This document shows, one piece after another, positions 11,038 to 45,462 of a DNA stretch of 62,000 nt. A program made the position numbers and the translations under genes. The notes beneath the pieces were generated by a model, which was not told the origin of the DNA, searched no databases, and saw only the letters and a list, made by a program, of their open reading frames with translations. This DNA is from Tubiluchus corallicola (lineage: Eukaryota > Priapulida > Priapulimorpha > Priapulimorphida > Tubiluchidae), in the NCBI GenBank assembly GCA_030141605.1, contig JAQGDQ010000092.1, forward strand, positions 430,001 through 492,000. Reading direction: 5' to 3'. How positions within the stretch are numbered: position 1 is the stretch's first letter; each line of letters begins with the position of its first letter.

Positions 11038-11245
11038 CCATTAATTCGTTTGTTTATTCATTGGTTTATTTATTCATTTAAATACTTGTTCATTCGTCTA
11101 TCATTTATTCGTTCATTCATTTATTTGTCTGTCCATCTGTTCGTTTGTTCGCCCATTTGTTCGTTCGTATGTTCGTTCGTTCATTCATTTGATCGTTCGT
11201 TCGTACATTTATTCACGCGCTTATCGTTTGCTCACTCGTTCATTA
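11038..11245. repeat. Degenerate ATTC/GTTC tetranucleotide array (copy 1)
   Basis: About 200 bp of mixed TTCATTCG, GTTCGTTC and TTTGTTCG units, with the same composition as the array at 1144-1215. The open frame through it is repeat-encoded. Confidence 0.85.
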
Positions 11246-14156: not shown

Positions 14157-14575
14157 GATTAAGGGAAAGGCCATGTCTTCTGGAAAGTTAGACTCAACGT
14201 TCGGGATAAATGTTAGAAGGATTTAGTAATAATACGGCACTGTCAATCTTTGACAAAAGTATAATAAATGTTTGCAAAAAATTAGATATCTAATTTAAGT
14301 AATTTTGTAATATTTTTGCGTGAACATTAGGTAAACTGCAGAAGTGTGAATCAGTTGAAGCAGCGCGTGCTTTCGGAAAGTCACGACGTCCACCAGTTAC
14401 GTCATAACTTCGAAGTGAACGGCGGCAACCTCCACATCTGAAGATTTTTTCAGCACTAGTATATTTTAAATTTATGCATTATAGATAGTTTTGTGCAAAT
14501 TTCTTTGTTATATTTTTCCAAATTTAAGTGATAACAGTAAAATAAACTCAACATACTGAGTGACTTGTTCTTTCC
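14157..14575. repeat. Interspersed repeat copy (family shared with legumain intron 5)
   Basis: The segment from GGGAAAGGCCATGTCTTCTGG to GACTTGTTCTTTCC is collinear with 37770-38325, although that copy has diverged. Shared landmarks are TTAGAAGGATTTA, AAAAGTATAATAA, CTGCAGAAG, CCAGTTACGTCATAA and TGCAAATTTCTTTGTTATAT. Confidence 0.8.
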
Positions 14576-17500: not shown

Positions 17501-18726
17501 GATATCAAATCAATAGTTTACGTTGAAGTCGATACGACTGCTTAATTAATAGACACTTGCGTGAAAAATGTCACTTGACAAATATCGAGACATGGTATTA
17601 GACTCAGTCGAAGTACATAGACTTCGTTACTCTTAGTTGATGAAGAACATGATAAGGCTGCGATTATCACAAAAAATAGAAAAATAATGTGAAGGCAAAT
17701 AAAATGGTTACGAGTTTTAGACAAAGAAGAGAGTCAATATTAATACTGTTGCAGTGGGTTACACAGAAGAATAGACAGATACGTGTTGTGTTGATTTACT
17801 TAAAATATGTGCATAGGTGCGCATTCTTGCAATACTGAGCTTAAGCCTATAACCAGAGTAGGCGTGACCTTAGACAAATGGTCGTGACAGAGGTGGTCTG
17901 CAAAGATATATTTCCGGCTCATGTATTTAAAATTGCTCAATTACAATCTTTCTTTTTGCTTGTGTTTAATCCAGTTACTGACTGTCCGATTGTGTGTAAA
18001 TGTGAACTTTGCAGAAATCTATAACAATAAGAAAAGTTGAATGAGAACGATCAGCGTAGTGATCTCTTTACCGTTTCAGTGAAGGGGAACTAGTACTTAT
18101 ATATGTATATAGGGGGGCAGTGTAACAGATGGAATCGCCCAAAAGCTGGTGATTATACACCCATTTACTACTTCGGCGGTGGTAAAATTATGGGAGCATA
18201 GGAGCGTTACGGCTACTGGCACGACCGGAATCTAGTTCATTATCAAGCATATCAGGACATGTAGATATTGTGTAGATTTAGCAGCAGTAGCAGATTAACT
18301 TATTAATTTTATTAAATATTTTATACATTTGAATCTTACGACTATCTAATTTGTAACTTGTAATGCTTCTGGGCCAAAAACAGAACTTTTTGCCTCTTGC
18401 CATTATTCGTTCCTAAGCTCTAAAAATTAATTAGGATTTTATTTAGAGCATTTCTGAAATAACTGTACTCAACTGACAACAATAACAAATTATCCAATCG
18501 ATGCTGGCATTGCGCTGTAACTAAAAACACACGTTTTGTATCGTCTGTTCAAACCCGAAGAACTGCATGACTCACTCAGCAAAACTGACGCTGCCTAACC
18601 AGTTATCATGGTTATGATGTGCTGCTACCTATTGAAAAAAACAGTACGAACCAAAAAGTGATTTTTTGACTTTGAGGAAAGCAGCACTTTAAACAAAATG
18701 GTCGCATTCCTAGTCAGTGACTAATT

Positions 18727-18934
18727 CCATTAATTCGTTTGTTTATTCATTGGTTTATTTATTCATTTAAATACTTGTTCATTCGTCTATCATTTATTCG
18801 TTCATTCATTTATTTGTCTGTCCATCTGTTCGTTTGTTCGCCCATTTGTTCGTTCGTATGTTCGTTCGTTCATTCATTTGATCGTTCGTTCGTACATTTA
18901 TTCACGCGCTTATCGTTTGCTCACTCGTTCATTA
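18727..18934. repeat. Degenerate ATTC/GTTC tetranucleotide array (copy 2)
   Basis: Counterpart of 11038-11245 in the second tandem unit, essentially identical. Confidence 0.85.
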
Positions 18935-21781
18935 TTATTTATGACTATTTTTATCTCTTTTATTATTTAACTTTATATCAATAAACATGGTACCACATTA
19001 CAAACATTAATCACAAACATACATGTAAAAAATTCACATTCAACTACAAGACATATTATTATTATTATTATTATTATTATAAGTCTTTTTATTAAACATA
19101 AAAGACATATTGAAAATAGCTTAACCAAAAAAATGCAAGTTAAAATCATCACATAACAACTTCTGCCTTTTTTCGACAAGTGCGACTCAAACTATTGGTC
19201 GAGGATATCGCTAAACGAAAGACCGTGGATTAGAAAAAGACGCCAATGCCGCCATCTTAAATTCAAAATGGCAAAGCGAAAATCCGACTCAGTCACTCAA
19301 AGCAGAATTCGTTGTAGTACCGTTCTATGAAGTTTCGTTGATGTGACGTGGTGAATTGGTAGAGCCTTTTAAGTTGTTAAAAATAATGTTATTAGTACCG
19401 TCTTGAATTAATGATGCAGATAAAAAATCTGATTAGTGTATTTCTGTTGCTCGATATGTTTATGTATTTATGTCGATCTGTTGCTAACTGGGAGAACGTT
19501 CTACTAAAATGACTCTATTGCCGCCATCTTGAACACAAAGCGGCGGATAGAAAACCCTACTCCACCAAAAGCTTCGTGTTGATCCATAGCAAATTCGCAA
19601 AAGGCATCTCAGCAAGAACAACAAGAGCAATTTCTAGATGAGTACGATTTGGGTCGAGCCTCGTGCAACAAAAATTGTGATTTCAATAAAATGTCAGAAA
19701 ATACCACAGAGCTTATACACCCCGTCAGTGAAACGTCATTTTTACTTACAAATATGCAATCTTTTAAGCTATAGCAGCTCTTAATTAAAACTGCGTGTAG
19801 AATAATTACAACAACGAGTCATTTATGACTCTCTAGGTACTGTAATTTGTTTTTTTAGCCATCCAGCTAATTACATATCATCTAATGACAGGCATAAATA
19901 AGAATGCATGCCTGAATGCGCTGTTATTTAAAGAAGTAGTTATTAAGGTGGCTTAATAAGAAGAAATGCTAGCATTAGCGAACTGTCACATGCTGAAAAT
20001 AGCATCATTATTGTCAACAGATATCAATAATGTACCTGACATTTTGTCAAACTAAACCTTATTCGCATGAACAGTGAATACACAAAAGAAATGGATTCTA
20101 AAAGTAGACACAATTTACTAGGCTTCACAAAAAAGAGCTCAAGGTAAAATCGCCAATGAAAGTATCTTCATCATTTTGCGAGGCTAAAAAGCGATAGCAA
20201 TCCGATGAAATAAAAAAGTGCAGATAGAGTCGGATCTGCAGAATCGCATTAGTAAGATAATTTTCATTTGTTCTACAAAGAAATTCGATAGAGTGGATTC
20301 AGAACCTGAAATACATTTTTCGCAAGTATAGGTGGTTATTTTCTTTTCGCTTCGCTTTTCTTTTTCATTTTCTTTTTATTTAATTAGTGGTTTAGTATTC
20401 TATTCTCCCTTTAAACTGGCTTGTTACTGATGTGACTACGCGTAATATTAGTTTTCATAACATGACATTACCCAGAAACACTCATTAGTTTCAAGAAAGG
20501 AAAATTATCAAAAGTATGGATCTCGATCATTTTCCTTTCTTTGCTTAGACTTAATTGCTTTGACAGAACTATATCTCATTATAATAGTGGCGTATTACCC
20601 ACATAACCGTGCATTACCGTACAACTACCCAAAAGTGCATTATAGTCAGAGAAGCACCACTCTGAGCTCAAGGCTAAGCAGCTTCCTGTGGTGACTTTAC
20701 GCCAGAGTCTGTCAACCCTTCTGTCTGACCGTCCCCCAGTCATTCAGTCTTACAGCAAGTATAGTAAAACTAGCTAATGTACTAGTGAAGCTGTGTCACA
20801 AGTTTTTACTTCGTTTGTTTATTACCATCGACTTTCTTACAACATAAACGTGCAAAAAATGTAAAATTTTTATCACGTAATAACTGTGTAACAGGAGGTG
20901 CCATATAAAACGAGCAAAACTGAACGAATTACTGCCGAGCACACAGAAAAACATTTTGACGCGATGCATGTGTTAAGATCAATATCATTAAAGCTTTCTG
21001 AAAAATTAAACTAGGTGTACAGTAGGTTACCATCGTATATACACAGGGAAGGAGAACTACAACTGCACACAAATAATGACAAATTTAATGCTACTGGTAA
21101 AAAGGGGATTTGTGATTAAGCCAAGTAACACCACTAAGTAACAAAAAGTTGAAACAAAATAAATCAAAACGAACCCTACGTGACCACATGGTGCAAACAC
21201 AACGTTGTTGCTTTGCTGAACCCTGAACGTCAGCGTGTGTTGTCGATCATACCGTGACATGAAGCAGAATTAACTATAATGCCCTATCTGGCCGCTGCTG
21301 TGAGTGCTAGCTGTAAATGACCTGGTGAAATACTATCAGTGTTAATAGACTGAAGTAATCCAATTCGCCATACGACAAAAGCACGTAATGTTAACATTAT
21401 AACAAAAGCACAGCATTGTTGAGCTACAAGTGTAGGTTGAATTCTAATAAAACATTTTTAACAAGAACTACAGAATCGCGATTATGGTGATGGCGGAAAT
21501 GGTGGACACCTGGTTGACCTAGCAGGATCCATTTTGATGGATTTTTAAAAATGTTAAAAATGTAGTTTTCAAAAGGAAAGAAAATGGAATTTTAAAGTGT
21601 ATCCCAAAGAGCTTTCCATGCAAAGTTGTATTACTAAGCATTATACTCACTTGTTTGAGAGACTTATGTAACTGAAAAAGAAAATTCTTAATATTTTAAA
21701 ACGTTGTCTCCATCTAGTAAAACAGTATGTTATGATACAGCGCAAAATTATCGGTCTGCAAATAGTAGCCTTGCATTTATA

Positions 21782-21786
<5 letters not shown>

Positions 21787-21841
<55 letters not shown>

Positions 21842-21847
21842 CGTGTG

Positions 21848-21891
<44 letters not shown>

Positions 21892-21900
21892 TGTGTGTGT
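21787..21900. repeat. GT / GTGC microsatellite specific to copy 2
   Basis: About 50 bp of (GT)n followed by (GTGC)n and GT again. The homologous place in copy 1 (about 14094-14108) has only GTGTACTGGCAC. Long minus- and plus-strand frames here are poly-Thr/His and poly-Cys/Val artefacts. Confidence 0.9.
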
Positions 21901-21949
21901 AAATAATGGGGTTATCATCATCATCTTCAATAGTAAAGCGGTAGTGCAT

Positions 21950-22378
21950 CGTCATCCCAGCGTGATTAAGGGAAAGGCCATGTCTTCTGGAAAGTTAGAC
22001 TCAACGTTCGGGATAAATGTTAGAAGGATTTAGTAATAATACGGCACTGTCAATCTTTGACAAAAGTATAATAAATGTTTGCAAAAAATTAGATATCTAA
22101 TTTAAGTAATTTTGTAATATTTTTGCGTGAACATTAGGTAAACTGCAGAAGTTTGAATCAGTTGAAGCAGCGCGTGCTTTCGGAAAGTCACGACGTCCAC
22201 CAGTTACGTCATAACTTCGAAGTGAACGGCGGCAACCTCCACATCTGAAGATTTTTTCAGCACTAGTATATTTTAAATTTATGCATTATAGATAGTTTTG
22301 TGCAAATTTCTTTGTTATATTTTTCCAAATTTAAGTGATAACAGTAAAATAAACTCAACATACTGAGTGACTTGTTCT
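21950..22378. repeat. Interspersed repeat copy in tandem unit 2
   Basis: Same element as 14157-14575, carried along in the tandem duplication. One substitution is visible near 22152 (GTTTGAATC against GTGTGAATC). Confidence 0.8.
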
Positions 22379-23639
22379 TTCCTTTAAAAACACATTATAG
22401 ATCTTATTGACAATATAAAAGAATATGAACTCATGAATGCTATGATTATTTTTTCAATTGCTGCATTAAAATTGCTGCATCAAACTGTAATCACGGGAGT
22501 TTAAATTTACAAGTTTTTTACTGTGTTACTGTTAACGCAAGCCCTATAAGTGATATAAAATTTTAAGATAATTTTTTTAAGTTTTATTAATGAAGAGTTT
22601 TTGTTGTGCTTTAAACCAAATTTCTGGCTTATTTCTATTTGGAGTTTAAGTACTGGAGTGCCTTCAATGCCTTCTAGTACTTGAAGACATTAATATGAGG
22701 CAAACGTGCGAGGAATAAATTTCTCTACCAATTCTTAAAGTCGTTATTAATTATAAGGACCTATAGATAGAGGACCATTAACTATCTATAGGCCTAACCA
22801 ACAACAATAACCAACGCGCTCTGAAGTCAGTACCCGAATATATATATATATATAGTCGTCACTTTTTTGCGTAAAGTCTATAAAGTCTATTGATTTACCT
22901 GACAGAGAGAGAGAGACTTAATTTATTTTTTAAATTTCAAATTCATATTCAGATTCTTTCACCAGCAAACTACATTTTACAACATGCAAATTAATTAAGT
23001 ACAACCAAAGCAGTAATCTAAATATTTTTGGTAATAATGGCAGGTGCTCCTCTTTGTTTCAAACACAAGAGAAACACTGTTGCTGATAAAACTTACGCTA
23101 TGAATGAGCACAATCTGAAACGTTTTTTATCGCTTTAATTTTTCACAACATCAGTTAAAAACAACAAAAACTACAATCTGATATGGTTCGTTTGTGCCTC
23201 AATTTCTTTGCAAACTAGGAAATGCTGATCAGTAAGTATTGCTAATCAATTTTATAGTTCTTAATGAGACAAATTTGTTAAAGATGCCTTTAGAATGCCA
23301 GGTTTACCCGGACAAACTGAAGCAATTTGCGCGTGTCTTGCACGCAGACCATCAATTGTTATTTTTAGAAATTATGTCTTGGCTTCAAAGGAGTGTTTAC
23401 TGAATCGCTTCAGCCATGAGTCACTAGACGGACAGCATCAGTAAGCCGGATTCGAGAGTGTTTAGACTTAGCTATTGTAAGTAAAAGCTTAAATCACAAT
23501 GTGACTGAATTGATGCTGAAATCGTAGGTACTGCGTTTTTAAGGATGAAGGATCACGAGTTAATAGAGAACGTTTTCTGCGCGACCCTGTATATGTTTAG
23601 GTAATCAGAAGCAACATGATTCTGTAGGTGCTGCAGGTA

Positions 23640-25134: not shown

Positions 25135-25998
25135 TCAGTTATTTAGCTCTTTTTTCTTCCAAGCAGTTCCGTTCACACCTGTACGGAATGATTCTGACTG
25201 AGGTTTCTTTAGCTCTTTCTTTCTGGCTGAGCGAGTATAAACTGGCTTCATTTCTCTAATTTCTGGACGGTTGTTCTGCTCTATATCTGCCTTCACCGCA
25301 AGCTTATTAGCTGATAATGGCTTCTGGGCAGATTTCACTGATGAGCTAGAACACGGGGAGGCAGATCGGGTGCTGGGGTTGGATTTCAGCTCTGAAACTG
25401 GGCTTAATCCCCGGTTAATTGTCGGAAATGTCTGATCCACCGCTGGCATATAAGTTTTGGTTATTTGTATAGAGGGAGTAACCATCATTTGACGATCAGT
25501 GCCATCTGAGCTACCATCTTCGTTTGATACTGAACTAATACTTTCATCGACAACAAAAACACCCTCTGACAGAATCATAGAACCAAATTTGTAGTTTACA
25601 TCTTCGCTTATAGAAAAGGAGGTACTGTCCTTATACTTCTCCCAACTAGCTCTTCGCTCCTCCCTGCGGGAAGCCGCTTCCTCGCTGGGTTTTTCTTTTT
25701 CTATCGTTTCGATTTTTTTCGCAAAAGCTTCTTCCATTTTGCTCACGGGTCTTTCTAATTCCTCTGTGTCAATGGACAAGGAGCGAGTCATTTCCCACAG
25801 TTTGTCGTGCAATTGTTGTCGCCTTTCTGCTGCATTTAAACCAGTTTTACTTAACGAAGGCGCTACTCTGAAGAACCCAAAGTTTGGCGACACAATTATG
25901 AATCGGTCGCGTATATACAGAATTGGACTCACAATTGCAGTATGTCGAACAGCCTTGTAGTCACCATAGGTCTCATATTCAAGTGACTTCTCACTCAT
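25135..25998 (-). CDS. Hypothetical protein, 287 aa, single coding exon
   Basis: An uninterrupted 287-codon frame, long for this AT-rich sequence, with gene-like amino-acid composition. Residues 1-50 form a small hydrophobic/aromatic region (YIRDRFIIVSPNFGFFRV at 28-45). Residues 54-124 are charged and probably helical or coiled coil. Residues 125-225 are Ser-rich and probably disordered. The C-terminus (255-287) is Lys/Arg rich. On the minus strand an acceptor-like CTGTTTTTAG ends at 26013, so a 5'-UTR or upstream coding exon may exist; the frame stays open through it. AATAAA on the minus strand (25099-25094) lies 35 nt after the stop, which supports a real transcript end. I do not recognise a family. 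A cytoskeletal or nuclear accessory protein is possible but unproven. Confidence 0.6.
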   Translation of the reverse strand: MSEKSLEYETYGDYKAVRHTAIVSPILYIRDRFIIVSPNFGFFRVAPSLSKTGLNAAERRQQLHDKLWEMTRSLSIDTEELERPVSKMEEAFAKKIETIEKEKPSEEAASRREERRASWEKYKDSTSFSISEDVNYKFGSMILSEGVFVVDESISSVSNEDGSSDGTDRQMMVTPSIQITKTYMPAVDQTFPTINRGLSPVSELKSNPSTRSASPCSSSSVKSAQKPLSANKLAVKADIEQNNRPEIREMKPVYTRSARKKELKKPQSESFRTGVNGTAWKKKELNN

Positions 25999-26013: not shown

Positions 26014-26975
26014 TAAAAACAGAAATTGATAATCAGCAAAAAATAGGAAAACATTACTACTTAATACTTAAACCGATAAACAGGATTTTTCTAAATGCCG
26101 ACTTTTGGGTTGTAGTAAGCATTTTCTTGTTTTTTTTTCTTATATTTCTCCCTGGACATTTAACCCTAAATACAGACACTTTGCTTATAAATCCAGGTTT
26201 CCAGGGCCTCTTATGTGTAAAGTTCCTTATTAGAAACTTGTTTCCCTGTTAACTACAACTTCACCTGTTTCAAGTTCATCCTAGTGGTTACTAGCAAATT
26301 ATTTACAACCAGCAAGAATTCTATTTTTCCAGGCTTTCGTATTGCAGCAAATTACAACGAGTGGCCACTGACTTGTTTGAAATGATTTACGTAAAACCAG
26401 AGAATAATAACATAACAATAAAAAAGTTGTTCCTGCTTAGGGACTGCTTCATAGTTTTCAGTTGTCCTGGCTGCCTTTGAGAATAACTTAGAAACATTTA
26501 CCTCATTATTTTCTACCCTCAAGAAAACTAATTTAGAAAGTGGCTTGTAACTGCGTAGTCTTTTGACAGCATGCGACATCTGTCTCACGTGGAAACTAAA
26601 AAAAGGAAAGGTCGAAAAGGAAACGTTAGTGGTTTCGGGTGACGGCAAAATTTTTCACAAATTACAAAACAATGCATGAGGTAACCGAATAGCTGGAATA
26701 TAGTGAAAATGTGAGGTAAAATAGAGTGTTACTTTTACAAATAAAAAGTTTTAATGTAAGGGAAACGGCGATTGTACAGAGGATTTATGAGATTAAAGTT
26801 TACCTAAAAACGTTGATTGAAAAGATTGAAACCATCAAGATTGAAAAGCCAAGCGAGATTTAAACTGGACAACCCATGCACATTACAACACAATTCACAT
26901 TGCAAACAAAGAAAAAATTACACCTTGAAAACACAATATAATTGTAAAACACAACACAATAATAAATTAATACTA
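26014..26975. other. Upstream region of the 287-aa gene, no exon proven
   Basis: A 98-codon minus-strand frame (26352-26648) contains a GAG|GTAAAT donor-like site near 26500. Splicing it to the acceptor at 26013 does not keep frame at phase 0, so I do not call it an exon. Confidence 0.3.
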
Positions 26976-27219
26976 TATAATTAATTAAATATTGCAGTCG
27001 TTTATAAATAATTTTAGTGATACTGTATAGAACCCAAAATTTTACACCAAAATTCTAGCACATTAGTAGGGCCAATTTACTGAATTACCCCGAAAAATAT
27101 AATTAATTAAATAATGCAGTCGTTTATAAATAATTTTAGTGATACTGTATAGAACCCAAAATTTTACACCAAAATTCTAGCACATTAGTAGGGCCAATTT
27201 ACTGAATTACCCCGAAAAA
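26976..27219. repeat. Perfect-looking 122-bp tandem duplication
   Basis: Two direct copies, 26976-27097 and 27098-27219, run from TATAATTAATTAAAT to ACCCCGAAAAA. I see one substitution (ATTGCAGT against AATGCAGT) and a length change in the terminal A run. Confidence 0.9.
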
Positions 27220-29332: not shown

Positions 29333-29559
29333 CAGCAGCGACGACGACGACGACAACGACAACGACGACAGCAATAACAACAACAACGATGATGATGACA
29401 TCAGCAATAACAACGATAACAATAACAACAGCAAAAAACAACAACAACAACAACAGCAACGGCAATGAAAACGACAACGACAAAGACAAAGACAACGAGG
29501 ACGACGAGGATGATGACAGGAATGACAACAACAATAACAACAACTGCACCTACAACAGT

Positions 29560-29617
<58 letters not shown>

Positions 29618-29900
29618 GCAACGACAATAATAACAACAACTGCAACTGCAACTACAACAGTAACAACAGCAACAATAACAACAGCAGCAGCAACAACGAT
29701 GATGACATTAGCAATACTAACGATAGGAATGACAACAGCAAAAAAAGTCAACAACAACAACAACAAAACAGTAATGGTTGATAACTGCAAAGCAACAACA
29801 GCAATAGCAACAAAACGACAATGAAAATAATGATGATGATCACAACTAAGGAGCAAGCAAGAAGCAAACAAGCAACAGCAACAATGAGAAGAAATAAGCA
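29333..29900. repeat. AAC/GAC/CAG trinucleotide-rich low-complexity block
   Basis: About 570 bp of AAC, GAC, GAT and CAG triplets, including an uninterrupted (AAC)n core at about 29560-29616. Every frame on both strands is open over long distances, giving poly-Asn, poly-Thr or poly-Val frames. These are artefacts of the repeat and not proteins. Confidence 0.9.
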
Positions 29901-30016
29901 ACAGAAAAGACGCAAACTCAAGAATATGAATCTCTATAACTTTTCGGTTAAGTTATGTAAGAAACTTTCGGAATACCAAACTTACTGCGCACTCCGAAAC
30001 TTTCTCTTAATGAAAT

Positions 30017-30182
30017 CACAGCAGTCGTAGTGAATTCTGTTCTGCATGATATGTTGCTGTATGATACAACCACTAAAAATCTCCTGTTCTATCTCTTTTC
30101 ACAGCAGTAGTACTGAAGTCTGTTCTGCATGATACGTTGCTGTATGATACAACCACTAACAATCTCCTGTTCTATCTCTTTG
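30017..30182. repeat. 83-bp tandem duplication
   Basis: Two copies, 30017-30099 and 30100-30182, each beginning CACAGCAGT and ending CTGTTCTATCTCTTT, with about six differences. Confidence 0.9.
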
Positions 30183-31989: not shown

Positions 31990-32368
31990 TTCACGGGGGC
32001 TAACCGCTAGGGCAGCTAGGTTAATCAGCTGACGATTGCTCAGTGTTTACTGAAGAGATTGCAGATTGCTTGCGAGCTCATCGTCATGTGTTTTAGGGGT
32101 AAGTAATTTTCCTTCACTAATTATTTGGCTTGTTTCTCGCAAGACTTGGTGCAATAGTGAGTCTATCTCTTTTTTTTTGCCTATTTCTTGTATACGCAAA
32201 TAATTGCTGTGGTGCAAACACAGCGTATTTATGTAACGGCGTATGTAAGTACTGCTCTCTTACCCTGCTATTTTAATTTGATCCAGGGACCTTTGACACG
32301 TTAATGAGAGTCATGTGGCGATGATGTACTTGGAAACGCCGCTTTACCGTCTGTCTACACTTGTCACG
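31990..32368 (+). promoter_or_regulatory. Probable legumain 5'-UTR with a UTR intron
   Basis: A good donor (TTTTAGGG|GTAAGT, 32099) and an acceptor (GATCCAG|GG, exon from 32287) would remove 32099-32286 and place the start codon 82 nt into the next exon. The transcription start is not identified; an E-box-like CAGCTG lies at 32026-32031. This is inferred from splice-site quality only. Confidence 0.4.
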
Positions 32369-35300
32369 ATGTCGGTAAAAGTGGTTATCCTGTTTTCTTT
32401 GCTTTCCCTAGCTTTTGCTGGTGTTATAAACAATTCTGTGGAAAACAATGACGGAGTCCACTGGGCGTTATTAGTTGCAGGTAGTAATGAGTGGTATAAC
32501 TATCGGCATCAGGTAATTCAACTCTTGTCAAAGTTTTTAACAACTGCAATCTTTTCTTTAGTGTTTCTGAAAATCACTACATTTGTTTCATTTTGGCGCT
32601 TTTGTACTGGTTATTAAAGACACATTTAGCCTGTGACAAGTTGACATCTCGTTTTCAATCATTAAAAAACTTGACAGTGAACTACTTCCTATATTTTTTT
32701 AACATTACATATATAATGAAACTTGTACACCCAAAGAACCAGACAACATTATCTGGCTGGCTGGTTAATTGTTATTTGGTTGTATTAGTTAGATGGCCGG
32801 CTGGATGCACATGTGCTTAACTAAAAAAAAATTAGAAATTGATGTGACTATACAGTAAAAGCAAACTCTTTCGACAATAATTTTAATAACATCTTTAGTT
32901 CACGGCATTTAAATACTTCAATAAAATGTTAAGAGTGCATTTGAATCTAAGTAAAAAGTAATCTTGAATGTTCAAAGAGGAAAAAACTGTGCCACAGTAT
33001 GGTAGTGCTTTTATTGCCCACCATTTGAAAATTCGCTGTGCACCAGATTGGTTATTGTCACCTTGCATTACTTTGTACTATTCTATTATACTGCTGTTGT
33101 TCTGACTAAGAGTTGTTAAAAACATGTTACGATATGTCATAGTACATCTTAGGATCCAGCATTCACTGGCAGATGTTGAATGCTTGTGGCTGGATCAGGA
33201 CCTTGCTCATTAGCAATAATTTACTAAAATGAGACCCTTGTTAATCAACTGGCAGAACTAGTTTAGCCACTCTCATTTGAGTATACATATATTCCCCGGA
33301 ATAAATAGCTAAAGCCAATGTGACAGATAAAACCACATAGAAACAGTGTTCCTGATCCACTTATATACTGACCAGGCTCGATGTTGCTTAAGTTCCATCA
33401 TTAAGCATGCTGCATAATCCATTTTTATGGGAATTATGTGCACTGCTTCACATGTTTTAGGCTGACACGTGTCATGCTTATCAGATCATGCATGATCATG
33501 GTATTCCAGATGAACGAATCGTTGTGATGATGTACGATGATCTTGCCAATGATCCAGAGTATGTATCAGTTCAAAATAATTCAAGTGTATCATTGGCTCA
33601 TAATGTTTGCTATATGTGTAATTTTTTGAAAATGGAATGCTGCATCTTAGTGTAAAACAACAGTTGTTTCAATAAATCTGTTTCGGAATTTCAGTAATTT
33701 TTCATATATACCCATTTGTTCCCCTTGTTCAAAATATTATACATTGCAAAATTATGAGCCTGGAAACAAGATATTGGTTGTTTCAGAAAGAAACATGACC
33801 GTTACTTTTTGCAGTTAACAGCTGCCAGTTTGTTTGTGTCCTAATGTCTTTCTGAGTTTTGATTAAATTAGCTGGAAACTTTAGGTAAAGTTTCCTGACA
33901 GTCCTGGCTTAGCTTAAGTGAATTTAATTTAGCTTTGATCAGGAATCTAGACAACTTTCTTGAGTTTTGTGCATGTCAAATTCTCCAGTTTACCTGGTTA
34001 ACACTGCCCTCTTTTCATGCCACTTATGGCACAAAGAGGGCTGTATTATCGATGAATATTAGGAAAAGTTAAAAAAGATAATATGCAGTTATCTTTCTTT
34101 ATTCATCAGTTTTAATTTATTTTCCATGTCGCTTAAATAAAGTACTTAGGTCTATCCAAAATACAAGTTCTTTCAAATTTCAATTTCAATAACTGATTAG
34201 TTCATCACACTAGAATTTTATTCACAGTCGCATCCAGCTGACATTGCAAAAAGGCTTTTGGTAATGATCTTTTAGAAACAACCAATATTTTTTTAGTTTT
34301 GTCAAATATACTGATCTATGTTGTTTTTCAGGCAGACATATGCCATGCATATCACTTATTGATATCACAAGGAATTCAAAAAAATCACATTGTGGTGATG
34401 ATGTACGATGACCTAGCAAATAATGAAGAGTAAGGTCAAACACTACATGCATGAAATCTTCTTGCACGTACTAATCCTTCTCTTCTAACAACCCTTCTAT
34501 AATATAAACACGAACTATCTGAACATTTAATTTGCATAGCTTTTTGCATGCTGGTATTATGTATTAAGGTTAAGCTTTGTTATTATTTTTACTGTTTGCT
34601 AATGATTTTTCCGAGATTGTAAAGAACAGTACGTCATCATGTACATGAATGGTTTATTGTTTTAATTCTGATAATTCTGCTGCAATACTAAAACTTACAC
34701 TTTGATTTCTATGCTATAGTCTATACAATAATACTTGCATGGTAATATGCAGTCATATAGCATGGTAACTCTAAGTACTTTTGCACTGCTTTTACTGCAT
34801 TGTTTCACTGCACTTTTACTGCTGTCTACCATTTGATAGATGATTGGTTTTGTACTCTTTTGTGAATTTGCTACTGTTACATTTGCTGTTATGTTAAAGT
34901 TTAGCTTGAGTTTCACACAAATAATAATTTTGAATGTGTGCATTTAAAGTTGCCACTATAGGAAAAAACTGCTAGTTCAATGTGAGAAAAGAAATGTTAG
35001 CAAATAAAATTTATTGCACTAGAACACTGAACCAAGAACTAAGTGCCTAAGCACCGTAACATAATATGTATAAATTTGTACCTTTTGCTTTTGTTGCTTT
35101 TCATTTTACGTACGCCTACTTATCTTGTTATACTAATGGTAATATGTTACGTTTTCAGGAATCCCACCCCAGGCATAATAATTAATCATCCAAATGGGTC
35201 AGATGTTTATCATGATGTTCCACACGATTATACAGGAGAGGTAACATAAATTCGGAAACCCTTCTAAACCGGATTTGAAAAACAGTAGTGTGTTCTTGGG

Positions 35301-38300
35301 AGTATTGTCACTTTCTCGTTAGCATTAAATTGAATCCGCTTGCTGTTTGTTTTAAGCATAAAATCCCCATTGTCTGGTTCTTTATTACAGAAATGTAAAA
35401 ATACATGAAAGCTCAATGTATATTCTTTATATATATTAAATATTATAAGAAAAATTTAAAAGAAGGATTCACTTAAAATGCATCTTTTGTCACAGAAGCA
35501 GAATCTTACCACATTTTTGTCACACACACTAGTTAGTTTTAATTTTCATTACCAGGCAGCTAAAATTTTATGTGTAGTGTGACTTATTACATTTTGGCCC
35601 AGGATAATGTGAGAATGTGAGTAGCTGTTATTGCACAGTGCACATTAAGGGGCGGATGTGTGTTAATTTATTTATGGATAGTGGTAAAGCACTTCATGTA
35701 AGATTTTTTTGTTTAAATACAAGTAATAAAAGATTATAACGTTACTTGTACTTTATAACTGATTACTTTACATTGTATCAGTGCTGATAGCAATGTTATC
35801 CAGTCTTCTAAGTCAATACTCTTGTAGCATAACACCATTATACGTATGTTATGTATGCCAGACCTTTTCAAGGTTTTGGTACCATTTAGGTAATTCTGTT
35901 TTAACAGCCTTGGTTCTCATAAGCTCATAGTTGAACCGTAATACTATTTTATAATATATTTGTTAATAAGTTAATTTTGCAGCCAGGCCTACAAAATGAG
36001 TTAAATTACAAATGAAAAATTGATAGGACCTGATTACTTTTCATTAGTCCATATAATTTACAGTCTAATAGTTATCCTCTTCATAGTATAGTATGAGAGG
36101 CTATTGTTTCTGGAAATGACTGGTTCACAGTTTCACAGTGAACACAGTTTCAACTCTTTTCACAGTTCCAGTGATTGATGGTGATCATGAAAAGGTCAAA
36201 GATTAAGTGCTTTGTGCACTATATAAGTATACGATTAAGTGTACATAAGTGTATATAAGTATAAGATTAAGTGTACCACAGAACGCATTGGCAAAGCTTC
36301 ACAGGCCATTCTATTGTAATAGTAACAGTTTTAACATCTAGCTAAAACCTTACCTAATTTATTTTTTCTTGTTCCCAAACAAGGTCCTGCTAGTAAATCA
36401 CTCTAAGCACAGACTAATGGATAATTAAGTAAAGTCCACTCAAAACAACTGAACTTACTGAACTGTTCGGCAGACAGCTTTGCTTTACCCACATGTCACG
36501 TTACGGTTGTAGTTAAGACGGTTGCGTTGCTGTGGTACACTTAACCTTTGATCTACAGCAACTGCGCATGTGCACAACGAAACTGTGACAAGGCTTATTG
36601 CTCATACATTTGACCATGTTTATTGTTTGTGACTCTGAATTACAATAGAAATTTTTGGACAATTATGTCGGACTAGAATGAGGTACTTTGTATCTGGGAT
36701 ATTATAATCTTATTAATTGTAGTGCATTGACAGTCAGGTTAGATAACTGTTTTTGTGTTGTAGGACGTGACGCCAGAAAATTTCTTGAAGATTTTACAAG
36801 GAGATTCTGAAGGAATGGCTGGGATTGGAAGTGGAAAAGTCATTAAAAGGTTTTATATTAATATATAAAATGTTACCTCGTATTCATTTATTGATGATGT
36901 TTAAAAACATTTTTCTCATTCTAAATTAAAAAACTTTGCAAACTGTTCTTCATTTTCATTCATTTAATCACCCCGTCTTCACCTTACAGATAAAGTTTTA
37001 ATGTTTTCCCATTGTAATGTTTAAATTCTTGTGAAATGAGAGTTGGTTGATGTACCAAAAGTTTAAACAGGGATGTGCATTATGATCATGTGAACTATAT
37101 AGACATAGACAAAAAATTCCAAAAGAAACATTTGCAAATACAGAAATAGTTGCACAAACATGCATGCCTGAAAAATATTGAACGATCTTGCACCACTGGT
37201 AGCTTCCACGTCCAAACCGCTTTTGTATTTACTTCAATAAGCTACTTATTAGAAGATAATGTGGATAAGGGAAATCTGTGTGTGGCGGGTGGGGGTGGGG
37301 GGGGGGGGGGATTGGAGGTAAGTGGAGAGCTTCAAATGGCAGGTTTTGTTTGTTCGACCAGTAGACCAGGATTTTCATCTGTATACAAATTAGAGTGATT
37401 TTATATCTTAATTCTCTATATATAGTCTATGATATGCTTGATGTACAGGTGTATCTACATTATTTTGCAGTGGGCCAAATGATAATGTTTTTGTAAATTT
37501 TGCTGATCATGGAGCTCCAGGAATAGTAGCATTTCCTATAGGAGAGGTTCGTAATATTCTAATTTTACTGAAGAGCTGAACTTGTATTTAAGGCTGCTTA
37601 CTGCATACTTTACTGTAATTATACATTTTGATAGGCTAGAATTTTCAAATTCTGGTTGCTAGTAATTTATAAGTATTAATTAACTTTAGGGTCACATGTG
37701 TTTGTGTACTTATTTATTTTTTTTTTTGTCAACTGGCTAAGTATTCTCTTTATCGATCAAATATTTTTTTAAAGGAAAGGCCAAGCCTTCTGGAAAGTAA
37801 GACTTATTTGTATGTTCACAAAAAATATTAGAAGGATTTATTAATAAAACTGCAATAAGCACTTCGTGTAGCTAGTAAAATCACTTTAAAATCACAATCG
37901 CTTCATGCTTGGACGCTCCAATTTTGAGTGCCCAAGTGCCCATTCTTCTTCCAATGATGTCATTCATTCTGAAGATAAATAGCACACTGTCAATTTTTAT
38001 CAAAAGTATAATAAGTTTTTACAAAAAATTGTAAAGCTGGTTTTGTAACATTTTTATGTGAATATTAAGTAAGCTGCAGAAGTTTGAATTAGTTTAAGCA
38101 GCACGCTCACGGAAAGCCATGAAACAGCTTGCGAAAAGTCACGAAGTCCCCCAGTTACGTCATAATTTTCAAACGAATGGTGGCAACCACCATGCCTAAA
38201 AATGTCTATTCAGAGGCAAAATATTTTAGATTTATGCTTTACAGAAAGTTTTTTGCAAATTTCTTTGTTATATTCTAAGTTTAAGTCATAATAGTAAAAT

Positions 38301-41300
38301 AAACACAACATGCGACTTGTTCTTTAAGTTTAACTAATAAATTTATTAGATTTCATAGTGTAAAATGGCTAATCAGGCAACATAGGTCTTACTTTTGTAC
38401 TCTATATATAACATTAAGAGAACTAATTGATTTAACTTGATTATTGACATTTAGTGAAAATTACGGAAGTTTGTTCCATGTATTTTTTAAAGTTTATGTA
38501 CCAAAAATATATATGACCAATTTTTGCTTTAGCTTACAGCCACAGACTTGAACAAAGCCATTCAGGACATGTACAACAAGCAAAAGTACAACAAGGTGAA
38601 GTAAATGCAGCTAACGTTGTTGTTTTTTTAATGAATAATTTAGAACTTCTTTCAGCTTGAGTTTGTTGCAACTAGTGGCATATGTCTGACATAACTTTTA
38701 AAATATATGTTCTAATGACTCAAAATAATCAGTAATTTTATTACGCCTTTGTTTTTCATTGCCTGTACTACTTTTCTCATTCATTTGATGTTTTTCTAGT
38801 GCAAGTGTCCTCTCTTAATTCGGTGTGCTTTATTAAATACTTACAGTTCAGTAAGGCCTAAAAAATATTGTTTGGTTAGGGTAACCCAACTAGTCATGTT
38901 TTTGTACTGCCCAGTGTAAAAATTTTATTGACATGACAACATGAAAACTTATTTTCCAAAATCATATACCAAAAGAACAAAATTAAAGCACCACCAACTA
39001 TCGACGATATGTCCTCCCAGCGGAAGTTATTTCAAATCAAGTGCCTCTTATCTTGGTGCTCAGTCTAAATGCCAGAAGTGACAAATTTATCATTAAGTTC
39101 AATGGAATGCACTGATAGTTTTAGCGATTACACTTAAATCTGGTTTGTCTGTGCGATTTTTTCACGAAAAGAAAAAGTATGTTACATTACTGTGTAGCCG
39201 TAATTACTATTTGTTTGCTGATTATACTTTTCTATAATATAATAATACTAGTTAGCACACACAGCAGTCACTATTATTTAATATAAAAATAAAACATTTA
39301 CCTACTGACCCATTTGATTTTTTTAACGTTTACGCTTTACTAAGTATATTTGGCTTGAATGATGTATCACAAAATACATACAGGTACAAATTGCTATAAT
39401 ATTACTTATCGTGTTATACTGTTGACCTGATTTATAATTAACAGCAATTTACATTGTTATTCATTAGCGCCTGAAGTGATTCTAGATTTAGACTTGTAAC
39501 TTGGCAAGATATACACCTCTCAATAATTTTTATTTGCACTTTTTGCATCTGCAAATAGTGATATGCCTTTTAATATATGAAAATCACATTTTCTTTAAAT
39601 TATGTGAAATTTCTTCAGGTGATGTACTTTGTATAAATTTTGCTTTAACCTGCTAAATAGAAATGGCTATCTCAAGTTTAGCTGCTATTAACTTGCAAAG
39701 TGGCATTGCTTTCACAAGTTTAGCTGAGAGATTTATGCAATCGTAAATTTATTGCAGATGGTGTTCTACATTGAAGCATGTGAATCTGGTTCAATGTTTT
39801 CTGGCCTCTTGCCTAAAAACATAAATGGTGAGTTCAATAAGAAACAAATTATTTACTGTCTGTTCACTGAAGCATTTGTATTTAATCACTTTGCTGTTAG
39901 AAATCTGCTAAAAAAGTCATAGCATTATATAGATTATTTTGTTCTATTGCAATAGGTTTTGATTTAACGAAAAATACTTTGTTGTGACCGAAAATTATTA
40001 TCTTGTCAATATTAGGATGTTCAGTAGTTGTACTGTTTTCACTTCGTATAAATATTATTAGTTAAAACCTGATATGACAGTACTTGTAGAATTTCTCTTC
40101 ATTAGACTCATTTGAAGTGATACTTTGTGCAATTGACATAGGCAAGGCACTTCTGAGGCATTAACGTCCACCAACTAGCATATTTACCACATATTTCACT
40201 TGAATAAAAAACAATAAAGTTATCAACAAAAAGCGTTCTTTTGTTGAATAAGGCTTTATGTACCTAAATCACTTTCTTGTGTATGGTTGTTGTATAAATA
40301 AAACCTGGCAATGATTTACTACAAAGTCAAGACCACATATTTGAATGTGCAGGATCAGTGCTTAAGATTATTGAATGCCTTTGTATTCTAAGATGCCAAA
40401 CAGATGAAAAGTTTTTTTTTTTAAAATTGACTGCAGCAATACTGAAGTGAAATATGTTCCTATATGGTTTAAATATGCTAAAATTTTTTGCACATTTAAT
40501 TTTCTGAAAGCTGCTTCTGTCACATTTCATTTCATTTTTGCATTGCCTTTTAAATTAGCCAACAACATGAATTTGCCAGAAATATCATTCAGCAAAGTGA
40601 AAGGAAAGTAATAATTGGTGGATCATTTATTCTAGTATTTGCAACAACAGCAGCAAATCCAGATGAATCATCATATGCCTGCTACTATGACGACCTTCGT
40701 AATACATACTTAGGCGATGTTTACAGTGTTATGTGGATGGAAGATTCAGATGTCGTTAGTACTTTTTTCAGTAATTTTATTTAGCTGGATAATGCTAGGA
40801 AAATGCATTAATGAGACCTCCCAGTTTCAATAGTCATAATTACAGAGTTGTGATAGCACTGTTCATAGAAGTAGGAGAATTTGATAAGATGGAAATGACT
40901 GCTACTATTCAAGTGCTTAACGAGTGAGCAGCTAGGAAAGAACAAGTATAAGTCATAATGTAAAAAGGCCAAGGTAACTTGTACTGAACTAATTTGTAAT
41001 AAGAACTGCTTTATAGTAAGTTAGTACAGTTGTTGTTGCTTAATAAAAGCAAATAATAATAAACCACACATAATAAGATGAGCCACATTTTAGAAGCATT
41101 TAGACAGGGTCCCATACCCCATAGAAACTATTTGTTAGGAAAATTTTATTAATACAACCAGTGCTCCATTTAATAAGATTGCATTTTTGAGTAACAGGCG
41201 ACAAAATAATAGCAAAATGGAAAAATAAAATGTGTTTTTGGTAATTTGCCTATTTTTAAGAGGCACAGTTGAAATTTAAATCCTATACTCACTTCTTAGT

Positions 41301-44300
41301 CTACACTGAAATTTGAAGTTGATTGTACAGTTGCTAGACTTTTGTCTGTGTGAATTAATTTAAATCAATGATTGTATGCTTGAATGAGAGTGAGCTGACT
41401 GCCCCGTGCTTTTGTATGTAATCTCTTAAATTATGTGAAGCAAACTGAGTTAGACACACAGGGGATATTAGAATTGTTAGATAAATTTAAAGGGCTGCAA
41501 CCCTGTAGTCAGTAGGAAGCAGCTGAGCCTTAAGAGTGTCTCGCAAAAGCTTACCTTGGTAACAAAAATAAATGCTAAAACTAACTGTTTGCAGCTAAAA
41601 TTGACAATTAATATTTTTTTGCTGAATAGATGTTAAAAATAAAGGTGACACAAGTGAGCAGCTTGTGCTTATGTGAGGCATATACTGTATTAATTAGGGT
41701 GAAGGGTTTTTTGTACTGTACTTTGTCAAACATACATGCTTGCAACAGGCTGCAGCATAATAAAACTGATGTTTATTAAGATCACTTATTGCTGGTCTCG
41801 TGGTGGTTTTATTAAGCGACGACTACTGTAATATTAAGTTCTATCATGCTTTAGGAGGATCTAACAACAGAGACTCTGGAGAAACAGTTTGAAATTGTTA
41901 AACAGGAAACTAACACAAGTCATGTAATGGAGTACGGTGATTTGGTAAGGCTAATTATTATTTTCACATACCTGAATTATACTTAGCTGATATAAATATC
42001 CACACTGATGAAGTGGAAAGTGTGCTTGGCAGTCTCCATGGAGATGAAAGGAAACATGGTCTAAATTACAATTTTATTTTTGCCTCACTTCCACAATAGT
42101 GAAATGTCAGGGTTAGTGGTGATTGGAGAGTGATTTGATACACACGCATATGTAGTGTGAACGGCTCTGGGCCGTCTGAGTTTGGTAATTGCTGTGAGTG
42201 CTTTCATGTGTCATATTGATTTATCCAGATATCGCTAAGACACTTCTGCCAGCTTGGCGGCACCTCTTAGAGGTATAGCCTTGATAACAAGCAATGCTAC
42301 AGTTATGCCACAAACAATCGAGTTGAGTAGGTCCAGCTTTTGAATGCTGGATTCTGGCTTTTTGTGTACCAAACTGTATAAAAAAGGCAGTAGCTAGAAA
42401 GTGGCTGATGTTAATTTCGCTAAATCTGGTTCAGCTACTCCCTTTGGATTTTTCTGCATGTCTTCAATGTAAGATGAGATTAAGAAAAGACAGCGTTAGG
42501 GAGACTGGTCAAGGTCATGGACATCAGGCATCACCAAAGCTAGCTACGCCATTTACCATCACATTTCTGTTAAAGGCATGGGAAATCTCTGATCAGTGGT
42601 CCTGGTGGCTGTAAAGTGTAAAGTGGCTGATTTGCACATCAAACTGAAAAAATCTTGAACATTTGTGTCTCACAGAAGATGACGAACCGATGAACAAATA
42701 AGGTTAAGAATAGTCACTACTTGGCCATTATAATAAGAGCTCTCTGTCTTACTTTCTAAGTAACAGTTTCAACAGTTGTGAATTTTGTCATGAGAAATTT
42801 GTAGATTTAATTTAAAACAAGTCAATTTCACAGTACACTACTACTAAGTAAATTGCTGTGTTACTGACATTGTGTTGTAACAATTACTTTGCAGACGATG
42901 GGTGACCTTACAGTGGTACAATTTCAAGGCGACAATCCATCAAAGATAAAGAAGACTATTAAACAGAAACGTCCACGAACTCCTGTAAGTTTGAAGCTGT
43001 CCATAGATAATTTATCCGATTATTTGTTTTATCGCCAAGTTTTGTTTTATTACCTGCGCAGAGCCATTGTTTGAAATACCCAGATGTACCACCTGAAAAC
43101 TAGAGCAACAATGTTAATTAATACCTGCAAATGTTTTTTTTGTTAACAATAAACACTCTACATATTGAATGAAGAACAAAATCATTAAATATAAGAAATT
43201 AGCAGTATAATGTTGATGCTAATTTTCTATGCATTATTCTCATTCGCAGCTCATGGATTCCATTTGTTGTTAACAATAACAATGTGCAAATGTATGCATA
43301 TGTGTGGTGTCACATCACACCTCGCCCCAGTAATAACCTATACTGGTCTCACCACACTACAATGTATAATCTACATTGACCACCTCACAACAGTACTAAT
43401 CCGCTATTTACAACAACCAGACCACTACAACAATGACACACTACAACAACAACCAAACCATGTCATACATCACGCTGCACCACACCACACCATAATAACC
43501 ATGCCACTCACTGCTGATGTCTCTTACAGGCTATTTGGTGTAGTAATTTGCTCGACCAATTTAAGTGACCACTGGGTTTCTTTTTCAAATTGCCACATAG
43601 CCATAACAGCATAATAACAAACCACATTGTAAAAAATACGACTGTTGCACATAATATATTGTCACTACATTGCATTTAATCAATAATTGGGTTTTGTAAC
43701 CATCTCATTTTAGTATTTTCTGGAACTTATATTCATAATTAAAAGTGGCTTTGCAGTACTCTACAAATGTTTATCAACTTCTAATAAGTTGTATTAAAAA
43801 TTACATTCATTTTTTAAATGAAGTCAATAAAGAGTCTAGGATATGTACCTCAAAAAGAAGTAACCTGCATATAATTCACGCTAGAACAACTCATACATTT
43901 TATTTGCTCCAGACTGATTCAGTTCCAGCACCAGATGTAAAACTTGCTATTCTGCGTAAACGACTGGAGAAGACTACAAGTGATGTGGAAAGACGTCAGA
44001 TTCACAAGCTTATCAAGGAAGAGTTGCATGTAAGACACTAATGAACTAATTCTTTCAGGCTAGGGAGGCATTGGTAGACTTTATATTAAAGAACGTGTTT
44101 AGTAATTTTTAATATATAGCTCGAAATTTTTCTTAAAGTTCTGCGTGAATTGCATGTAGGCATACTGTATCATGCAGAGAAACTTTTTCAAGTAGTGCTG
44201 TGTAAAAAATCAAAGTTTGATCTCCTGTGATTACAGTTAGAAGCCATCATCTTAATAGTCACATGTTTGTTAAGAAATGAAAGTGAGTTTTTATTAGTGC

Positions 44301-45462
44301 ATTTCATTTTGTAAAAGACAGGAAAAAGGTAGAAATGCACAAATCATTGGTTTAACAAAATTTATGTCATTTCATGAACATGACTGTTAATTTTTGTAAA
44401 CTACTGGTACATGCCAGCATCATAAAACACTGACGTCATGGTAGCTTCTTGTCCTTTTTCAAATAACTAAATGTTTTCCATTCTGTTTAAATAGGTAAAT
44501 CTTTCAAAAGGAGAATTTGCTTTGAATTGCTCTTTAAAATGCCTCCATTCTTTTTCTGTTGCTAGTTGTGTGCAAGCCTTTTCCAATTACCCAGATAGGT
44601 AACCAAAGAAAAGTGAATGTTTTCAGTTTGGTTTTGGTACATACAAACTCAAATTCAGCAAGTCTCTTGTAAGGTCATTGCTGTCGTGCTGATACAACAG
44701 TTGGTACTATAGGTCGTCCATTTTAAATACATAATATGTTGATGTTTTTTCAGCTAAGAGAAGCCATTAGCGAGACGATGAAAAAAATTGTTGGATATTC
44801 AACTGACGATCCGGTACAAGCAGAGAGAATTCTGAATGGTCGTCGTACTCTGTACAGCCGTGATTGTTATGAACCAGTTATGCACCATTTCAGCCGCAAC
44901 TGCTATGCACTACATAAGGTAGGACAAATCAGTTTTTCAGCTCATTGTGCACTATAAGATTAGCTGTTTTTTCAGCTCATCGCTTTTCTCGTAATAGTTG
45001 TTTTGTTAGTTTATGACAACATTTATAGGCTGGTAAATTAATATCAATGTGAGCCACTGTTAAATTATGTATAATGTCTTAATTATGAGATATTTATTGG
45101 TTGTTTTAGTTATCCCATAATCAGTTGATTTAGATTCTCTGAATAACAAGATTGGAATTTGGATATCTCAATATTTGTTTTCATTGTTTCGCAACTGCAT
45201 GCGAACTGCATCTCTTCGTTGAGGCATTCTGCACTCTCATTGATATGCCACTACTACATTTTCAAGAAAGTCATTTACTCTTTGAAGTTCATCTTTTTTA
45301 GTCATAACCTTAGAAATGTAAGGTAACATGAAATAATTCAAACCTTTCTTATTTCAGTATGAGCATGCTTTACGCCACCTTTACAAACTGGTTAATCTTT
45401 GCGAAGAACCCGTACCAACGTTCACCATTCTGGAGGCCATTGACAAAGCTTGTCTCCTTTAA
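32369..45462 (+). CDS. LGMN: Legumain (asparaginyl endopeptidase, C13 family), complete
   Basis: Lysosomal cysteine endopeptidase cutting after Asn. Coding exons: 32369-32512; 33461-33558 or 34332-34429 (alternatives); 35159-35240; 36764-36849; 37471-37546; 38533-38595; 39758-39827; 40636-40754; 41855-41944; 42895-42984; 43913-44029; 44754-44918; 45358-45462. All phases agree and give 434 aa (human 433). Residues 1-18 are a signal peptide, which selects the ATG at 32369 over the in-frame ATG at 32321. Catalytic and pocket residues: Asn44 and Arg46 in WYNYRHQ, His150 in ADHGAPG, Cys191 in EACESGS. The C-terminal prodomain keeps the paired Cys pattern (DCYEP, NCYALH, NLCEE, ACLL). The donor of exon 5 is GTTCGT and of exon 8 GTTAGT. 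The human RGD is QGD here, and I see no Asn at the human autoactivation site (LEKTTSDVE). Poly(A) candidates: 46707 and 46740. Confidence 0.95.
33461..33558 (+). other. LGMN: Legumain alternative exon 2a
   Basis: 98-nt exon, start phase 0, leaving 2 nt (GA) to be completed by the first G of the exon at 35159. Acceptor CATGTTTTAG, donor GTATGT. It encodes [16 protein letters not shown], then [16 protein letters not shown]. It is closer to human legumain (ADACHAYQII, then [16 protein letters not shown]) than exon 2b, so it is probably the ancestral version. It contains a 14-bp perfect palindrome, GATCATGCATGATC, at 33484-33497. Confidence 0.92.
34332..34429 (+). other. LGMN: Legumain alternative exon 2b (duplicated exon)
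   Basis: 98-nt exon with the same phases as exon 2a, acceptor TTGTTTTTCAG, donor GTAAGG. It encodes [16 protein letters not shown], then [16 protein letters not shown]. Relative to 2a, 20 of 33 residues (counting the split Glu) are identical, and many shared residues use different codons (GCT/GCA, TGT/TGC, CTT/CTA, GCC/GCA). The conserved ADxCHAY and [11 protein letters not shown] ends flank a variable middle. An intact frame and good splice sites argue against a dead exon. Confidence 0.9.
37286..37310 (+). repeat. G-rich tract in legumain intron 4
   Basis: GGGTGGGGGTGGGG followed by an uninterrupted G run, on the coding strand of the intron 36850-37470. It could form a G-quadruplex in the pre-mRNA. 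Confidence 0.8.
37770..38325 (+). repeat. Interspersed repeat copy in legumain intron 5
   Basis: Diverged copy of the element at 14157-14575 and 21950-22378, in the same orientation. It includes a ~110-bp segment (37870-37980) not present in the other copies. It lies wholly within the intron 37547-38532. Confidence 0.75.
42120..42395 (+). repeat. SINE-tail-related repeat in legumain intron 9
   Basis: The 3' part (GCCACAAACAATC, GAATGCTGGATTCTGGC, GTACCAAACTGTATAAAA) aligns with the tail of the 5S-like SINE at 59543-59860 (ACCACAACTATC, GAGTGCTGAATTCCAG, GTACCAAACTATAAAA). The 5' part does not show a clear 5S head, so the copy may use a different head or be degraded. Confidence 0.5.
43290..43520. 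repeat. CAC/ACA-rich low-complexity stretch in legumain intron 10
   Basis: About 230 bp rich in CACACC, CAACAA and CCAC on the plus strand. The 134-codon frame at 43210-43614 runs through it and is intronic. Confidence 0.6.

Follow-up and report, generated by a model that had tools for sequence, protein, structure and literature searches.

Tandemly duplicated, probably mutually exclusive exons in the legumain gene of the priapulid Tubiluchus corallicola

The legumain gene and its surroundings

The window, i.e., the whole stretch of 62,000 nucleotides that was analysed, contains a legumain gene, complete and on the + strand, with coding sequence from 32369 to 45462 distributed over 13 coding exon positions. 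Every intron of the gene is GT-AG, and a single frame leads from an assumed start ATG at 32369 (the frame continues open upstream with more ATGs, in an ORF at 32297-32617) to the stop at 45462. Exon 1 (32369-32512) encodes Asn44, Arg46, and His47 and ends in phase 0. It is followed by two copies of exon 2, a canonical copy termed 2a (33461-33558) and a divergent copy termed 2b (34332-34429), the last residue of each being split, and by exon 3 (35159-35240), which finishes the split Glu codon of whichever exon 2 precedes it. The remaining exons, namely exons 4-8 (36764-36849, 37471-37546, 38533-38595, 39758-39827, and 40636-40754) and exons 9-13 (41855-41944, 42895-42984, 43913-44029, 44754-44918, and 45358-45462, the last with the stop), likewise on the + strand, span 36764-45462 and encode the active-site residues His150 and Cys191 as well as the prodomain.

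The predicted proteins with exon 2a (isoform a) and exon 2b (isoform b) both exceed the Pfam cut-offs for Peptidase_C13 and for the legumain prodomain, and isoform a aligns to PDB legumain chains across residues 18-433. Catalytic-type residues are present at Asn44, His150, and Cys191, which we take to be the active-site residues of legumain, together with the S1-type residues Arg46 and His47. In human legumain, Arg44 and His45, which are located in alpha1, are described as contributing to S1 (PMC4357240). The best relative, among the best 120 of 4348 protein matches, was a legumain-like protein of Priapulus caudatus with 64% identity. The gene thus has the Peptidase_C13 domain, the legumain prodomain, the active-site motifs, and the 2a type of exon of other animal legumains (family C13). 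A Peptidase_C13 profile search of the assembly, carried out exon by exon with scoring of the best candidates, gave five matches that all fell within this one legumain gene; no second legumain gene was found by this search, by which diverged paralogues could be missed.

Several other features were observed elsewhere in the window. A tandem duplication occupies 7481-22976, in which 7481-14098 matches 15168-21792 (99.9%) and 14107-15169 matches 21914-22976 (99.3%), with a TG/CA array at 21788-21900 in the second copy; either the duplication is recent or it is a haplotype duplicate produced in the assembly. The - strand has an ORF at 25138-25998 that encodes 287 aa from a start Met; Pfam gave no match to it, and none of 1229 candidate database proteins reached E <=0.001. 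An imperfect ACA trinucleotide array of about 116 units (29353-29697) gives long low-complexity open frames on both strands, and two-copy tandem repeats are found at 26975-27219 (122-nt unit, 99% matches) and 30016-30181 (83-nt unit, 93% matches). Downstream of the legumain gene, a + strand gene at about 49690-54800 (limits set by eye) contains translation-factor-type GTPase exons and presumably resembles GTPBP1/2; its segment 51251-51448 matches GTP_EFTU at 22.4 bits, below the cut-off of 26.5, and 54537-54791 matches GTP_EFTU_D2 at 39.7 bits, above the cut-off. Neither tRNAs nor Rfam matches at gathering scores were found in the window, and a search of the assembly for COX1 found none.

Homology, reading frame, and constraint of exons 2a and 2b

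Exons 2a and 2b are identical at 66 of 98 nucleotides (67%), with zero indels. When 2a was compared with the 62-kb window by tblastn, 2b was found at E = 3e-10; the best remaining match of an exon to the window, self-matches and the 2a/2b pair aside, reached only E = 0.10, and below E = 0.1 the window had no extra copy of any legumain exon. A WebScipio-style scan of the 11 internal exons against all introns of the legumain gene (32 to 163 candidates per exon) gave 2b a relative score to 2a of 0.56, against a WebScipio default threshold of 0.15 and a score of 0.11 for the next best candidate. Chance similarity of the two exons is excluded by the tblastn E-value and this relative score. With about 300 nt compared on either side, the best alignment joins 33455-33561 to 34326-34432, so that the alignable flank extends for 6 nt on the upstream side and 3 nt on the downstream side of the exons, the introns being otherwise unalignable. 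On the evidence of these alignments, 2a and 2b demonstrably go back to one 98-nt exon that was duplicated long ago.

Both exons are entered before codon position 1, left after position 2, and bounded by GT-AG sites. The coordinates, phases, and splice sites were derived anew, and the result was the same arrangement as in the preliminary description, i.e., two homologous 98-nt exons with equal phases, 773 nt apart. Its proposal that the frame permits only one of the two also held. The series 1+2a+3 and 1+2b+3, continued through the remaining exons, contain no stop before the end of exon 13 and each give a 434-aa protein, whereas the series 1+2a+2b shifts frame and stops inside 2b, and exon 1 joined to exon 3 without any exon 2 reads ESHPRHNN before a stop in exon 3. 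Double inclusion and double skipping lead to an early stop because 98 nt do not make up a whole number of codons. The donors and acceptors of 2a and 2b show no incompatibility that could enforce exclusion alone. With regard to the features by which mutually exclusive exons are recognized in PMC3228551, the lengths of the pair (98 and 98 nt) lie within 20 aa of each other, the splice-site pattern and reading frame agree with no in-frame stop, the relative alignment score of 2b to 2a is 56% (threshold, >=15%), and the two are neighbouring exons between exons 1 and 3, with further exons around.

The encoded residues differ at 13 of the 32 complete codons, and both copies have Glu as the split 33rd residue, in agreement with the 13 of 33 counted earlier; as had also been pointed out, shared residues are often written in different codons (9 of 19). 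NG86 estimates between 2a and 2b were 0.32 for dN and 1.43 for dS, the latter near saturation. Eighteen of the 32 nucleotide differences are located at third codon positions, a bias that 0.11% of neutral runs reach, and when neutral change was simulated from 2a (32 of 96 sites changed), <=13 aa changes and no stop were obtained in 0.015% of 20,000 runs. Across 226 comparison proteins, the mean column entropy was 1.20 at the 13 differing columns vs. 0.43 elsewhere (permutation p 0.002). The Pfam scores of the isoforms are near equal (382.8 bits for isoform a and 383.6 bits for isoform b), and in the genome search with Peptidase_C13, the stretch with 2b scored 38.8 bits and the stretch with 2a 35.4 bits. 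These values give statistical support to the retention of both copies as coding sequence. The low dN relative to dS, the third-position bias, the simulations, and the concentration of changes in variable columns together argue for an old duplication kept under selection, as was originally suspected.

The swapped segment and the intervening intron

The location of the swap in the protein was read from an AlphaFold2 model (mean pLDDT 91.4) of the Priapulus caudatus protein (P0001), the closest database relative, for which 48 sequences were chosen from the 226. The model has a helix at 56-74 and a strand at 82-86, which with an offset of 14 correspond to 42-60 and 68-72 here. Exon 2 is accordingly predicted to encode the C-terminal two thirds of alpha1, followed by a loop, beta2, and a YDD turn. 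Six of the differences between 2a and 2b would lie in the helix and five in the loop, the other two being those of residues 79-80, with beta2 left unchanged, which bears out the earlier remark that they affect mostly the helix and loop. At the alpha1 end and alpha1-beta2 loop, HDHGIPDER in 2a is replaced by ISQGIQKNH in 2b, and the net charge of the segment changes from -7 (2a) to -4 (2b), His excluded. The swap had been placed two residues after the S1 residue Arg46, but exon 2 begins with Ala49, the third residue after Arg46. Asn44, Arg46, and His47 belong to exon 1 and are common to both isoforms, and the catalytic His150 and Cys191 are also encoded outside exon 2. Because the swap comprises the alpha1 end, loop, and beta2, with the S1 and catalytic residues in other exons, the suggestion that the isoforms differ in substrate choice is the weakest part of the earlier reading. 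Surface contacts or stability would more likely be affected than the choice made at S1.

The 226 comparison proteins comprise the best 120 of 4348 matches and 106 new ones among the best 120 of 155 from a region-limited search. Exon 2a has the usual GIPDE loop, with a Pro64 that is found in 223 of the 226 proteins. The corresponding loop of 2b is GIQKN, and Gln at position 64 is found in 0 of the 226. In this the gene differs from other animal legumains, as the 2b loop occurs in none of the 226 proteins among the matches listed, in a database clustered at 90%, a level at which a close relative might have its 2b isoform concealed behind the 2a form. Eight of the 226 proteins score closer to 2b than to 2a, through residues outside the 2b loop. 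The legumain-like protein of Priapulus caudatus has a 2a-like exon, and its database cluster contains one member sequence. The loss of Pro64 in 2b could reflect relaxed constraint. On the other hand, at residues 79-80 it is 2b that has the commonest residues of the family, Asn (81%) and Glu (63%), with Asp (3%) and Pro (11%) in 2a. Judging from these residues, neither copy is simply ancestral, and 2b has changed more.

The intron between 2a and 2b (33559-34331, + strand, 773 nt) is the most structured intron of the gene. Its folding compared with dinucleotide shuffles gave z-values of -4.6 (20 shuffles) and -7.6 (30 shuffles), and the other 12 introns, three of which were represented by their first 1000 nt, gave values from -2.0 to +2.4. 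The strong fold is mainly due to an inverted repeat on the + strand with a left arm at 33760-33818 and a right arm at 34240-34300, the latter stopping about 14 nt before the A at 34314 that was chosen by eye as the candidate branch site of 2b. The core of the repeat (33765-33791 and 34268-34294) is 85% complementary, with about 476 nt between the arms and TA on both sides, and the arm-arm duplex has an energy of -45.1 kcal/mol. Its ungapped repeat score was matched by 0 of 100 shuffles, and those of the flanking introns by 3 of 100 and 90 of 100. The same intron contains a separate near-palindromic hairpin (33999-34014 and 34033-34048, 88% complementary). Local complementarity across introns was at chance level, with 38, 118, and 56 of 200 shuffles equally good for the three intron pairs; the whole-duplex energy of the left and internal introns was below that of all 60 shuffles, and 37 of 60 and 13 of 60 shuffles were as good for the other pairs. 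In its strongly structured cluster intron the legumain gene resembles the Dscam-type docker-selector systems described in PMC6071210, but the structure here is located within the internal intron, and local pairing of flanking with internal introns is at chance level. Docker-selector pairing thus has no support from the local test and mixed results from the whole-duplex test.

That the inverted repeat (33760-34300) is a MITE-like transposon remnant with no part in splicing, a question independent of that of the exons, has slightly less than even odds. The enrichment published in PMC6071210 concerns flanking-internal introns, not internal-internal ones, and this was counted for a remnant, as was the chance level of local pairing across introns. 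The terminal inverted repeats, the spacing of the arms, and the flanking TA are also what such a remnant would have, and the opposite strand of the intron folds comparably (z -6.5), as a palindromic element also would. MITEs are typically multi-copy, however, and the element matched itself alone both in the 343.5-Mb assembly and in the window, with no second copy found by a search that skips very common words and whose lack of a match therefore does not show rarity.

Explanations and significance

In the explanation that we consider probable, the legumain gene has in 2a and 2b a tandemly duplicated pair of exons that exclude each other. The preliminary description had reached the same reading, with one copy per message, and it is favoured by the frame, the homology, the constraint, and the Pfam tests. 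After the old duplication of one 98-nt exon, both copies would have been preserved as coding, and a productive mRNA would carry a single copy, 2a or 2b; messages with both copies or with none would be degraded or yield a fragment. The two resulting enzymes would have the catalytic and S1 residues in common and would be distinguished by the C-terminal end of alpha1 and by the alpha1-beta2 loop. The likely effect would be on surface contacts with the prodomain, an inhibitor, or a partner, or on stability at a given pH. Isoform 2a would probably be the default form and 2b the regulated form. In the weakest step of this scheme, the folded 2a-2b intron, with its stem ending beside the candidate branch site of 2b, could act as a brake on that exon. 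A wider proposal is rather doubtful as a whole, namely that the one detected legumain gene gives two legumains whose differing alpha1-beta2 surfaces serve different compartments, tissues, or inhibitors, and also that the choice depends on a single-copy fold of some 530 nt in the intron between the exons, by which the branch site of 2b is either concealed or left accessible.

Published surveys were weighed on both sides of the mutually exclusive reading. A human survey verified 1,399 of 6,541 candidates, many of the others being without data, and reported a length not divisible by three for 25 of 615 novel intronic candidates (PMC5740500); in our weighing, the low verification and the latter figure were both counted against it. 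On the fly X chromosome, such features are stated for only 90 of the 16,180 exons outside the mutually exclusive class (PMC3228551), a figure that was counted for it.

Exon 2b could also be a relic, i.e., an old duplicate that is no longer spliced in and has remained intact by chance or because its loss was recent, and the loss of the near-invariant Pro64 and the lack of a 2b-like protein among the 226 matches listed are in keeping with this. The question was addressed with a stricter null, in which 2a was purified and 2b was neutral since the duplication, at 11 mutation levels; runs with 28-36 nt differences were counted, and success was defined by <=13 aa changes and no stop, leaving the absence of indels and the intact splice sites out of the count. 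At the level that matches the observed divergence (35 events per branch, mean 31 nt differences), 29 of 3396 runs succeeded (0.9%). Lower levels were more favourable to a relic, with 32 of 443 runs at 25 events per branch and 50 of 2225 at 30 (2 to 7%), and 20 events gave 3 qualifying runs and 0 successes. At higher levels, success fell to 11 of 2910 at 40 events, 3 of 1724 at 45, and 0 above. Furthermore, 2b is free of indels, its splice sites are intact and its pyrimidine tract is good although the introns have diverged past alignment, its changes avoid conserved columns, and its Pfam score equals that of 2a. A relic is therefore improbable.

A poison exon, which in some messages would follow 2a and by its stop reduce the yield of legumain, with no in-frame translation of its own peptide, is somewhat less probable again. 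The combination 2a+2b does run into a stop within 2b, but legumain coding in the other frame would be unneeded for this function and yet has been kept with a third-position bias, and isoform b attains a Pfam score equal to that of isoform a. Double inclusion could still be a side route of control. It is hardly credible that either exon stems from an artefact of assembly or from an allele placed wrongly. Elsewhere, the window has duplicated 6.6-kb blocks that are nearly identical, a sign that the assembly may contain such cases, but exons with 67% identity and unalignable introns are unlike alleles or collapsed copies, and both exons are located in one gene on one contig. An assembly duplicate as the origin of the pair is ruled out, as the introns do not align.

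As mutually exclusive exons, 2a and 2b would belong to a known kind of arrangement. Tandem duplicated exon substitutions have been reported for 236 human events (PMC9741552), and SNAP25 exon 5 is given as an example of mutually exclusive duplicated exons (PMC2581893). Like the human pairs, the legumain pair is adjacent, homologous, and equal in length and phase, with a core segment swapped and key residues kept, and its length of 98 nt has a counterpart in the 377 human clusters (60%) that contain lengths not divisible by three (PMC5740500). It differs in that the host gene encodes a C13 protease, that 2a and 2b are known from genomic sequence alone, and that the loop change from PDER to QKNH is less conservative than most of those described among the human events (PMC9741552). 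In legumain, the arrangement is apparently unreported: no report of mutually exclusive exons in this enzyme was found in the titles and abstract openings of the open-access papers listed, which is consistent with the earlier impression that the pair is new for legumain.

Legumain is described as a lysosomal protease under the control of pH, its prodomain, and cystatins (PMC4357240, PMC4506564). If the reading of 2a and 2b as mutually exclusive exons is true, two natural variants that differ in just 13 residues could reveal the role of the alpha1-side surface. A protease would join this kind of splicing, for which the human events are reported to show enrichment for functions of brain and muscle, with ion transporters among the convergent families (PMC9741552). 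The folded intron, for its part, would offer a simple two-exon case for testing how exclusive choice is enforced.
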